This document shows, one piece after another, positions 42,352-45,770 of a DNA stretch of 51,656 nt. The notes under the pieces are model-generated. The model saw only the letters and a program-made list of their open reading frames with translations, had not been told where the DNA came from and made no database searches. A program made the translations under genes and the position numbers. The DNA comes from an uncultured Azospirillum sp. (GTDB lineage: Bacteria > Pseudomonadota > Alphaproteobacteria > RF32 > CAG-239), in NCBI GenBank assembly GCA_947301965.1, contig CAMYUM010000011.1, forward strand, positions 1 through 51,656, in the 5' to 3' direction. Numbering within the stretch: position 1 is the stretch's first letter; each line of letters begins with the position of its first letter.

Positions 42352-43428
42352 TTGAAAAGAACCGTACTTGACAAATCAGTTATATGTACTTCATTTGCGT
42401 GCGCAATCGCGGCGTTTGCATGCGGTTTTGTCTTTTGCATGGCAATCATCAGCAACAGTAGCGGTTGCTATTTCTTAATTAAAGATTTTTGGAAAATCAC
42501 GCGCGGTTATTCATGGTATCAAAGTTTACGCCATATGACGATTGATCAAATCCTGCTGTGGGCGGCAGTTACCGGCTTGGTTTTGTTCTCAATCTCAATG
42601 ATTGTCAGCGGTATTCAATTTCTTTTTCGCCGTGCTCACAAAAAACCGGCTCCCGTGCATTCGGATGATACTGATAGTGAAGAACAACCCGTTTTGCCGG
42701 AAACTCCCATAGTTGCCCCTTTTGTTGATGAGGATAAGGTTGCCTCGGCATTGCAGACATATCGTCGTAATACCGATGCCCGCAGTTGGGAAAAGCTCAA
42801 TTCTCTTGAGCCGGCAATTTTAGCCAAACATCTCAAAAAAGAATATCCTCAAATTGCGGCAATAGTGCTTTCTAAACTAAATCCGCAAAAAAGTGCCGAA
42901 GTTTTGTCCCTTTTTACCGGAGGTTTTGCTGCCGAAGTTATTGCAAAAATGTTGAATTTACATTCCGTAGATGCGGGTTTGGCAGGCACAATCGGTCGTG
43001 TTATAGCCGATGACATTGAAAAAAATTCTTTAGATGATACGACAAACCAGGTCTTGTCAATTCTCCGTTGTTTGGATAAAACCACGGAAGAAAGGATTAT
43101 GGCAGTTTTGGAAAATACTTCCCCGTCAGTTGTGGCATCGTTGCAAAACAAAACAATGCAATTTACCGATATCTTACAGCTTTCGGTTGAAGAACTCAGA
43201 CAGGTCTTGATTCACGTCAGCGAACCTAAAATTGTAATGGCAATGCGTGGTGCTACGGAAAATCTTCGCAATCATTTTTATGCCGCCATGCCGGATGAGC
43301 AGGCAAATGTTATTCGCGAGGCCTTAATCCAACTCGGCCCAATCAAATTCAGTGATATAGAAAAAGCCCAACAGGATATAGCCTCTATCTGCAAAAACAT
43401 GTTTGCCGATAGCTTGCGGGGAAGATAA
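42352..43428 (+). CDS. Membrane-anchored FliG-like flagellar switch protein
   Basis: The 358-residue product has two membrane helices at about residues 9-30 and 66-90, a Pro/Glu-rich linker to about 130 and then the FliG middle and C-terminal domains. Middle-domain features include LAKHLKKEYPQIAAIVLSKL (usually EHPQ) and AEVLSLF. C-terminal features are DILQLSVEELRQVL, MAMRGATENLRNHFYAAMP and LGPIKFSDIEKAQQ, the region that touches the stator in true FliG. Ordinary FliG is soluble, about 330 residues, with no membrane helix; its FliF-binding N-terminal domain is missing here. The start is TTG after AGAAGAG. Confidence 0.75.
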   Translation: MKRTVLDKSVICTSFACAIAAFACGFVFCMAIISNSSGCYFLIKDFWKITRGYSWYQSLRHMTIDQILLWAAVTGLVLFSISMIVSGIQFLFRRAHKKPAPVHSDDTDSEEQPVLPETPIVAPFVDEDKVASALQTYRRNTDARSWEKLNSLEPAILAKHLKKEYPQIAAIVLSKLNPQKSAEVLSLFTGGFAAEVIAKMLNLHSVDAGLAGTIGRVIADDIEKNSLDDTTNQVLSILRCLDKTTEERIMAVLENTSPSVVASLQNKTMQFTDILQLSVEELRQVLIHVSEPKIVMAMRGATENLRNHFYAAMPDEQANVIREALIQLGPIKFSDIEKAQQDIASICKNMFADSLRGR

Positions 43429-43430
43429 AT

Positions 43431-43610
43431 ATGGTTAAGTTTACCCCGTTCCTGTTTGACAATTTTATTGAAGACGACCATGTCCCCATTCTTGATTTAA
43501 GTATCAACCATTCAGCGGAGCCTGCCCAAACCGAAGACAAGGACGTTTCAACGCCGGAGATATTAAACAAGATTCGCAGTCAACTGATGGGGCTAATTGA
43601 TGATGAATGA
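43431..43610 (+). CDS. Small 59-residue protein in the FliH/FlbE position
   Basis: The product begins MVKFTPFLFDNFIEDDHVPI and ends in a short helix (STPEILNKIRSQLMGLIDDE). It starts 2 bases after the FliG-like stop, and its last bases overlap the FliN-like start. In alphaproteobacterial operons the order is fliF-fliG-flbE(fliH)-fliN, and FliH proteins often begin with a motif like FLFDxxFD. This one lacks the long coiled coil and the FliI-binding domain of FliH (usually over 200 residues). Relation to FliH is inferred from position and a short motif only. Confidence 0.5.
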   Translation: MVKFTPFLFDNFIEDDHVPILDLSINHSAEPAQTEDKDVSTPEILNKIRSQLMGLIDDE

Positions 43611-43839
43611 TTTTCAAAAAAAATGCGTTAATGTTCAAGCCGTAGCCGGCAAAACATTGCTTAAATTATCTCAACTTGAAGAGTTGAAAATCGGAGACGT
43701 ACTTAAACTTGAACGCAAAATCGATGAACCGATAGATATTTATGCCAATGATGCACTTGTTGCCAAGGGGCGGGTGGTCGTATCCGATAACAAATTAGGC
43801 ATTCTCGTTACCGAAATTATCAAGAATGGTGTTGATTGA
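43600..43839 (+). CDS. FliN-like protein consisting only of the SpoA domain
   Basis: The product is about 79 residues and covers just the C-terminal SpoA domain of FliN (LLKLSQLEELKIGDVLKLER, then IDIYANDALVAKGRVVVSDN and KLGILVTEII). In flagella this domain forms the C-ring rim with FliM; typical FliN is 110-140 residues. ATG codons at 43600 and 43603 are both possible, and the overlap with the preceding 59-codon gene is 8-11 bases. FlhG follows by 3 bases. Confidence 0.75.
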   Translation: MMNDFQKKCVNVQAVAGKTLLKLSQLEELKIGDVLKLERKIDEPIDIYANDALVAKGRVVVSDNKLGILVTEIIKNGVD

Positions 43840-43842
43840 TAA

Positions 43843-44634
43843 ATGGCGGAAACAATAAAACATAAAACTCCTCGCGCCGAAATAGGCAATATTTTGCCGC
43901 ACAATGGCAATATGATAGCTGTAGCATCAGGCAAATCAGGAGTTGGCAAAACCTGGTTTGCCGTAACCTTGGCCAATGCATTGAGCGCGCTCAAACAAAA
44001 AACATTATTTTTTGACGGCGATTTAGGCCTGTCTAACATTGATATTCAGCTGGGACTTGGCATTTCGCATGATCTCAGCTGTGTTGTTACGGGAAAAACT
44101 ACCCTCAATCAAATTATAAGATATAGCGATAAGGCGCATTTTGATGTTATTGCCGGTCGAGGAGGTACGCGCGGACTGGCCTCTATGCCGGTAGGCAGAT
44201 TACAAATTTTGGCCGAGGATTTGTCATTTCTTTCTTCCGGCTACGATAAAGTCGTACTTGATATCGGTGCCGGTATAAACAAAGCCACCCTTATCCTTTC
44301 AGGTATGGCCGGTCGTTTGATTATTCTCTGTACTGATGAGCCGTCATCGCTGACCGAAGCATATGCATTGATTAAAGTGGTGTCTGACCAATACCCCAAA
44401 TGCCACATTTCGATAGTGGTTAACCAATGCGTTTCGGTTCAGGACGGGCAGCGTACTTATGATATTTTACGTAAAGCCTGTCAAAATTTTTTGAAAGTTG
44501 CTCCTCCGTTGTTGGGAGTTGTCCGTCGCGATACACGTATTCGCGATGCTATTCGCAACCAAATGCCGCTGCTTGCTCGCTATCCTTCATCTGAGGCGGC
44601 GGTTGATGTAGTTAATATTGCACGAAAGTTATAA
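43843..44634 (+). CDS. FlhG-like MinD/ParA-family ATPase
   Basis: The 263-residue product has a deviant Walker A (SGKSGVGKTWFAVTLANAL), the switch region FFDGDLGLSNIDIQLGLG and VVLDIGAGINKATL. The order and the phrase GLSNIDIQLGL are typical of FlhG (YlxH/FleN), which controls flagellum number and C-ring assembly with FliM/FliN. No FlhF is present here. A membrane-targeting C-terminal helix is not clear. It lies 3 bases after the FliN-like gene and 2 before the J-domain gene, so the cluster is one transcript. Confidence 0.8.
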   Translation: MAETIKHKTPRAEIGNILPHNGNMIAVASGKSGVGKTWFAVTLANALSALKQKTLFFDGDLGLSNIDIQLGLGISHDLSCVVTGKTTLNQIIRYSDKAHFDVIAGRGGTRGLASMPVGRLQILAEDLSFLSSGYDKVVLDIGAGINKATLILSGMAGRLIILCTDEPSSLTEAYALIKVVSDQYPKCHISIVVNQCVSVQDGQRTYDILRKACQNFLKVAPPLLGVVRRDTRIRDAIRNQMPLLARYPSSEAAVDVVNIARKL

Positions 44635-44636
44635 AA

Positions 44637-45770
44637 ATGAGAGATGCACTGGGATATTATGCTATTTTGGATGTTGATTCTTCAACCGACATTAACATTA
44701 TCAAAACCAATTATCGTGATTTGGCTAAATATTGGCACCCCGATTCAAACAAAAATCCCGATGCCATGGAACATTTCCAAAAGCTTTCGGTTGCATATGA
44801 TGTCATAAAAAATGAGGATAGCCGTTTAGAATACGATTTGTTGAGTGAAATTTATGATACGGCCGATTTTCCGGATATGAAAAATCTCAGCATCCTGAAA
44901 GACAAGAATAATAATGAAAATCCGCTGGTAAGAGTGATAAATATGCATAAGGTCGTCGGCAGATTTATCAAATATGCCGATAGTGATGACAAAATTGTAT
45001 GCAGTTATGATCAAGCCAAAAATCTGGTTTTAAGCGGGTCGTTAGCAAACTGGTTTTTAGGGTGGTGGCATCCTAAAGCGTTTGTCCTAAATCTAAAGGC
45101 TATTATCGGCAACTATACTTCTATCGGGCACAACACTCGCGACAATCTGATACTTTTGGTACACAATGCGCTCGCCTATCACCAGGAAGACAAAGACCGC
45201 CAAGCCATGATTTCTGCCCTGCAGGCGCTAAAGTACGCAGATGCATACCAGCAGGAACTTATCAATCGGTTTATCAAAAGACTTAATGTTGCACGTCCGT
45301 CAAAAGTTCCGGAATGGAGATATACTACGTTGCGTGTGCTTCAGCTGATTGTGCCGTTTTTAATCCTGTTGTGTGCAAGTTATCCGTTTATTCAAAGATA
45401 CAATCTTAGCCGTTATGCCAAAAAAGAAAACACAATCACTTATTTTCAAAAGGTCAACCTCAATAATGGCAAAGAAATTGTTGATGATGTAGTGGTTTCA
45501 AAAATCTTTTCCGTACCGGTGGATTTGAATGATAAAAGCAAGCTTTATCACTTTGCCGGCGATGCAAATATTATGTATGGTCCTGCCGCCAAATTTGATG
45601 TTATGGCTTCCGGAAAAACCGGTCAAACCGTTCGTGTAACCGGTTTTACACCGGATAAGACATGGTATCGTGTTATGATAGATAACGGAGAGATGGGTTT
45701 TGTTCCGGCAAAAACTCTGCAGCCCGGCATTGGAACCGAACCTCCATACGGCAGCAAAATTGTTCCTTAA
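44637..45770 (+). CDS. Membrane protein with N-terminal J domain and C-terminal SH3-like domain
   Basis: The 377-residue product begins with a J domain (about 4-66) whose HPD motif is in YWHPDSNKNPDAMEHF, so it can stimulate DnaK. A helical region follows to about 225, then a membrane helix at about 240-258 (LQLIVPFLILLCASYPF) and a C-terminal bacterial SH3-like domain at about 295-370 (DANIMYGPAAKFDV, WYRVMIDNGEMGFVPAKTL), probably periplasmic. SH3-like domains of this type often bind peptidoglycan. The last gene of the cluster, it is followed by a terminator. Confidence 0.75.
   Translation: MRDALGYYAILDVDSSTDINIIKTNYRDLAKYWHPDSNKNPDAMEHFQKLSVAYDVIKNEDSRLEYDLLSEIYDTADFPDMKNLSILKDKNNNENPLVRVINMHKVVGRFIKYADSDDKIVCSYDQAKNLVLSGSLANWFLGWWHPKAFVLNLKAIIGNYTSIGHNTRDNLILLVHNALAYHQEDKDRQAMISALQALKYADAYQQELINRFIKRLNVARPSKVPEWRYTTLRVLQLIVPFLILLCASYPFIQRYNLSRYAKKENTITYFQKVNLNNGKEIVDDVVVSKIFSVPVDLNDKSKLYHFAGDANIMYGPAAKFDVMASGKTGQTVRVTGFTPDKTWYRVMIDNGEMGFVPAKTLQPGIGTEPPYGSKIVP

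Follow-up and report, generated by a model that had tools for sequence, protein, structure and literature searches.

A predicted self-anchored, reduced flagellar switch complex in a non-flagellated genus of Alphaproteobacteria, and a natural FliF-FliG fusion in one of its clades

A recent survey found one or more rotor proteins, but no filament protein, in 11% of non-motile species and suggested an alternative function (ISME J 2025, PMC12199754). Non-flagellated Lysobacter have lost fliG, fliM, motA, and motB and have kept a working export apparatus (PMC9927559), and FliF-FliG fusions of Salmonella and Vibrio are known as engineered proteins (PMC11481574). Campylobacter jejuni keeps division away from its poles by means of FliF, FliM, FliN, FlhF, and FlhG, the last of which acts downstream (PMC3228812). 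Here, we describe a five-gene cluster at positions 42,352 to 45,770 of a 51,656-nucleotide stretch of DNA (the window), which is the entire contig CAMYUM010000011.1 (G000:C11) of an uncultured Azospirillum sp. (assembly GCA_947301965.1, hereafter G000; Alphaproteobacteria, RF32, CAG-239), whose 1.29-megabase genome is rated 100% complete. The sequences indicate a stripped-down flagellar switch complex that was vertically inherited in a non-flagellated genus, and we hold this anatomy and the absence of a flagellum with high confidence.

The set resembles the flagellar C-ring in its FliG_M and FliG_C domains, the SpoA domain of FliN, the N-terminal peptide of FliH, the order fliG-fliH-fliN-flhF-flhG in the genus, and a FliM-like protein with a SpoA domain and, in a low-confidence model, a CheC-like middle. 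It differs in the lack of FliF and FliG_N, in its own membrane anchor, in altered torque charges, and in the lack of a stator, export gate, rod, hook, and filament. With the division control of C. jejuni (PMC3228812), it shares FlhG, C-ring proteins, and the proposed cue to a MinD-type ATPase, but C. jejuni has a working polar flagellum, whereas no flagellum and, in G000, no FlhF is found here. As in Lysobacter (PMC9927559), the flagellum was lost and some genes were kept, but the pattern is the reverse. In the survey (PMC12199754), we saw neither a comparable module nor a series of fusions nor an analysis of selection. The features of the cluster are as follows.

42352..43428, plus strand: membrane-anchored FliG of 358 amino acids (aa) with a TTG start; two transmembrane (TM) helices, a linker, FliG_M, and FliG_C, no FliG_N
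42379..42621, plus strand: TM hairpin of FliG; hydropathy helices at about aa 10-33 and 66-90
42811..43029, plus strand: FliG middle domain (PF14841, E 1.2e-16); its EYPQ motif is the FliM contact site in canonical FliG
43108..43401, plus strand: FliG C-terminal domain (PF01706, E 6e-20) with altered torque-helix charges
43431..43610, plus strand: FliH remnant of 59 aa; N-terminal FTPFLFDNF segment and C-terminal EILNKIR helix, middle deleted
43597..43839, plus strand: FliN of 80 aa, SpoA domain only (PF01052, SpoA/FliMN_C, E 9e-20); overlaps the FliH gene by 14 bases
43843..44634, plus strand: FlhG, a MinD/ParA-type ATPase (P-loop/MinD-like); the flhF gene between fliN and flhG is cleanly deleted here
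44637..45770, plus strand: J-domain/TM/SH3-like protein; J-domain E 3e-17, SH3_3 below the gathering score

The five open reading frames lie head to tail on the plus strand, spaced by 2, -14, 3, and 2 bases, and chance reading frames are ruled out by the domain scores and conservation. The first-pass annotation, made from the sequence of the window, had reported this tight packing, a self-anchored FliG with two membrane helices and no FliF-binding domain, and a FliN trimmed to SpoA, and all three descriptions hold. No FliG_N was found by Pfam at the N-terminus of the window FliG, where a TM anchor lies instead. In the AlphaFold2 (AF2) model, the TM helices span aa 8-34 and 64-95, and the hairpin, with its short, conserved loop (GCYFLxKDFWxxTRGY), stands in the place of FliF/FliG_N. 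The model matches FliG-MC structures in Foldseek with an E-value of about 1e-8, and the TTG start with its purine-rich leader is common to G000, G002, and G009. The window FliN aligns to the C-terminal part of flagellar FliN. At the equivalent position, FliH has 274 and 260 residues in the flagellated G020 and G049, 167 in G012 and G003, 79 in G005, and 59 in G000, G002, and G009. The 59-aa form has no Pfam match and retains the first residues of the FliH of its relatives (KFLFDNF/PFLFDNF) together with the C-terminal helix. Because residues 1-18 of Salmonella FliH bind the FliM-FliN SpoA pair (PMC4443714), the retained segment is likely the adaptor peptide.

The gene order and neighbors of the cluster match the flagellar operons of related genera. 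As for its order in relatives, which the first-pass annotation had proposed to compare, the cluster is conserved, but flhF sits between fliN and flhG in most of them, so that the usual order is fliG-fliH-fliN-flhF-flhG. The same-genus species are recorded as uncultured Rhodospirillales or Alphaproteobacteria, several from rumen, colon, and omasum, and all genus data are metagenome-assembled genomes (MAGs), among which G001 is 92% and G010 is 99% complete. In one MAG, the fliG cluster occurs in identical copies on two contigs (G005:C75 and G005:C102), probably owing to assembly redundancy.

The origin of the anchor is suggested by a sister clade. In G006, G010, and G011, FliG is 466-473 aa long, and its N-terminal half corresponds to the C-terminal periplasmic domain of FliF, the S-ring domain or third ring-building motif (RBM3), with PF08345 matches of E 3e-19, 1e-21, and 3e-21. 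Compared with the FliF of flagellated relatives, this half aligns over 146 columns with an hhalign probability of 99.6% and 34% identity. The same RBM3 half, interrupted at the contig end, was found in a fourth species, G004. By their sequences, the FliG proteins of these four species are natural FliF-FliG fusions, of which we found no report in the open-access literature. The engineered fusions of Salmonella and Vibrio (PMC11481574) likewise carry the C-terminal part of FliF and FliG in one chain; however, the natural protein has lost RBM1, RBM2, the beta-collar, the C-tail of FliF, and FliG_N, and it occurs without a flagellum. The remaining species of the genus have the TM hairpin where the fusion clade has RBM3. 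In a tree built from two genes, those for ThrS and for a glycosyltransferase (1021 columns), the fusion and hairpin species form two sister clades with supports of 97 and 100, respectively. The simplest reading of these sequences is that fliF and fliG became joined in the common ancestor and that one clade then trimmed the periplasmic part, although the step from FliF to the hairpin is one that we infer, because homology between the short hairpin and the TM helices of FliF is not demonstrable by profile comparison. In the sister clade, the anchor is thus no new invention: it is a remnant of FliF fused to FliG. The fusion clade also carries the N-terminal peptide of FliH (LFDLSINRP-like) and the SpoA domain of FliN in a single protein (L065:4835-5113 and L066:10089-10508).

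The rest of the flagellum was sought in the 13 genomes of the genus, with positive controls and flagellated family members scoring positive. The N-terminal ring motifs of FliF (PF01514) were found in none of the 13, while flagellated relatives and controls were positive. Similarly, FlhA (found in G020 and G049), the MotB plug, and the rod/hook domain PF00460 (5-7 copies in flagellated relatives) were each found in none of the 13. At most one MotA/ExbB match occurs per genus genome, and that of G000 is TolQ in a ruvA-ruvB-ybgC-tolQ-tolR-tolA arrangement. A complete flagellum elsewhere in the genome is ruled out by the lack of PF01514, FlhA, the MotB plug, and PF00460, and an assembly gap hiding fliF is ruled out since fliF is missing from 13 of 13 genomes, most of which have one and the same abhydrolase gene directly ahead of fliG. 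The genomes indicate that the genus lacks RBM1/RBM2 of the MS ring as well as the export gate, stators, rod, hook, and filament. The first-pass annotation had seen no FliF, FliM, FlhA, or rod and hook genes, which stands except for a FliM-like protein, encoded on another contig; neither a complete flagellar set elsewhere nor a cluster broken in close relatives appeared. CheW was not found even in the flagellated relatives tested, and its absence is uninformative on CheY switching. The torque residues R281, D288, D289, and R297 of E. coli FliG align with E, E, A, and K in the FliG_C of G000. The D289 position is replaced in all 11 FliG proteins of the genus, and R281 persists in G012 and G003 alone (G008 has K), while flagellated relatives retain R281, E288, D289, and R297. 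Because the charges of the torque helix are lost and no MotAB is present, the retained switch complex should not rotate.

A probable FliM was found at a second locus. On G000:C1, a second SpoA protein (E 8e-14) precedes DUF6468 (E 5e-12) and a membrane coiled coil resembling MotE, adjoining uvrB; in flagellated relatives, the equivalent spot reads fliL-fliM-DUF6468-motE-(large gene)-uvrB. Pfam detects SpoA alone in this FliM-like protein, and its AF2 model, of low confidence (mean predicted local distance difference test score, pLDDT, 55), matches the FliM chains in solved C-ring structures (E 2e-7) as well as FliM/CheX/CheC middle domains, so that its CheC-like middle is assigned by fold match only. 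The fliM-DUF6468-motE locus is present in G002, G005, G008, and G012 and, in more divergent form, in G004, G011, and G006. Around it, MotE shortens from 215 to ~154 to 115 aa, losing its C-terminal domain in the short clade, and FliL from 180 to 149 to ~60 aa before it is lost. G006 retains FliL (E 2e-4, below the gathering score) and a full-length MotE with an MgtE_N-like domain, and G004 and G011 have a 56-67-aa TM peptide alone in the place of FliL. The EExxxLL-like N-terminal motif of FliM is kept in the genus species with a readable FliM, except G000 and G002. The C-terminal tail of DUF6468 (EAELELLKALRSIK/R) is nearly identical to that of flagellated species.

Several neighbors of this locus and one further SpoA gene were also observed. 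The large gene that flagellated relatives carry between motE and uvrB (~1040 aa; L119:9993-13139, L120:4807-7923) is missing in the genus. Two genes beside fliM, of ~240 and 920-1120 aa, are conserved in flagellated and non-flagellated family members (L056:10484-14584; L119:3618-7156; L120:10967-14520); neither has a Pfam match (for the larger, the N-terminal 393 aa were tested), and the start of the larger resembles a type IV pilin-type protein. A stand-alone FliN-like SpoA gene located away from the flagellar loci (L070:9203-9448 in G012, L072:3192-3440 in G003, L127:701-961 in G020) directly precedes acyltransferase-like, KdtA-like, and lpxK-like genes, named by eye as lipid A/lipopolysaccharide genes, in both flagellated and non-flagellated species.

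The last two genes of the cluster have a wider distribution. The J-domain/SH3 gene occurs in 12 of the 13 genus genomes and in every family genome searched outside the genus, whether a C-ring is present or not, and it lies beside a FlhG homologue in the C-ring-less G015, G016, G017, G024, G025, and G028; in G014, no FlhG homologue was seen beside it. The FlhG orthologues of G004 and G026 share 70-74% identity with the protein encoded by flhG in the G020 flagellar operon and 64-68% with the window FlhG. Since both genes persist in genera without FliG, FliM, and FliN (flhG in nearly all cases examined), they are, judging by this distribution, not specific to the C-ring and are neighbors instead of dedicated parts of the cluster in which the first-pass annotation had listed them; the J-domain/SH3 protein as a specific C-ring part is ruled out. 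The pair is often followed by tgt, encoding queuine tRNA-ribosyltransferase (L112, L113, L114, L115, L116, L126).

By sequence, FliG(M+C) is anchored in the inner membrane through N-terminal helices of its own, either the RBM3-TM remnant of one clade or the bare TM hairpin of the other, and is accompanied by FliM, FliN, the FliH adaptor-peptide remnant, and the DUF6468 and MotE-like membrane coiled coils. In the arrangement that we propose, FliG-M would bind FliM through the EYPQ motif kept in G000 (canonical EHPQ), the SpoA domains of FliM and FliN would pair, and the FliH N-terminal peptide would clamp this pair, so that a static ring or patch that does not rotate would form on the membrane. 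In Shewanella, FlhF binds FliG-MC, and FlhG binds FliM/FliN via the FliM N-terminus (PMC11236974); FlhF, in most species, could position the complex here by binding FliG-MC. Most likely, the complex would serve at a pole or elsewhere as a scaffold or spatial cue that acts on FlhG or together with it, for instance in placing the division site as in C. jejuni. That a static membrane scaffold has been reused as a spatial cue, perhaps via FlhG, we put at about even odds; division control specifically, argued by analogy, is doubtful. To the full reading, namely that the C-ring became a membrane-anchored spatial organizer, independent of a flagellum, that together with FlhG forms a division or polarity system of the Min kind and arose via a FliF-FliG fusion whose RBM3-TM-FliG intermediate is extant, we assign a probability of roughly 0.28. 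Several observations weigh against the spatial-cue reading. The flhF gene is missing in G000, G002, and G009; the FliM of G000 and G002 lacks the N-terminal motif by which Shewanella FliM binds FlhG; and FliM was not found in G010, which is 99% complete. Neither FliG nor SpoA was found in G001, where the region is missing together with the abhydrolase gene (genome 92% complete). FlhG persists in several C-ring-less genera, and its role there needs no C-ring. Finally, the fliG mutant of C. jejuni has little or no minicell phenotype (PMC3228812).

A general membrane or polarity scaffold apart from FlhG and division, serving as an anchor for DUF6468, MotE-like, or envelope proteins or as a signaling input, is possible but on balance unlikely. 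DUF6468, the most constrained partner (dN/dS, the ratio of nonsynonymous to synonymous substitution rates, 0.05) and nearly unchanged in its tail, and the retention of FlhG elsewhere without a C-ring speak for such a scaffold, but the sequence names no partner for it and FlhF and FlhG are still in the cluster in most species.

A slowly eroding relic without present function would account for the stepwise shortening of FliH, MotE, FliL, and FliM, for the faster evolution of these genes than of housekeeping neighbors such as ThrS and EF-P, and for the FliM not found in G010. However, 11 divergent species of the genus (25-84% identity) have intact reading frames, and the tight operon is kept. Between G000 and G002, dN/dS is 0.09 for FliG, 0.10 for FliN, 0.03 for FlhG, 0.15 for FliM, 0.05 for DUF6468, and 0.15 for MotE, and between G000 and G009 it is 0.11 for FliG, 0.15 for FliN, and 0.07 for FlhG, all ratios being approximate because synonymous divergence is high. 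The open frames and ratios of 0.05-0.15 indicate purifying selection on the reduced switch complex instead of decay; they disfavor pseudogenes and the decaying remnant that the first-pass annotation had considered. In addition, the other non-flagellated genera of the family have wholly lost the FliG and SpoA genes, so retention in this genus is not passive, and a functionless relic seems improbable to us.

A filament-less rotor powered by TolQR or by some other ion-driven stator would fit TolQR as the sole remaining stator-type motor of G000 and the place of MotE and (in G006) FliL in the stator surroundings of flagella, but with the torque charges eroded (D289 in 11 of 11, R281 in most), no MotB, and the C-terminal domain of MotE lost in the short clade, it is very improbable. 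Equally hard to credit is the sorting platform of a secretion system with FliH and an export ATPase: a FliH peptide and SpoA proteins do form such a platform in flagellar and injectisome systems, but in G000 FliH has lost its middle, and the genus has neither an FlhA/SctV-type gate nor a PF01514 protein (SctJ-type ring) of non-flagellar type III secretion, while no search was made for FliI.

The family offers a graded and selected series: a full flagellum; an RBM3-FliG fusion with FliM and FliN; a TM-hairpin FliG with FliM and FliN; and no C-ring. This series would show which C-ring interactions selection retains once rotation and export are gone, and it provides a concrete case for what half a flagellar motor is good for, a question raised by surveys (PMC12199754). 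It also shows that FlhG and the J-domain protein can persist after flagellum and C-ring alike have been lost, which points to a role of FlhG outside the flagellum.

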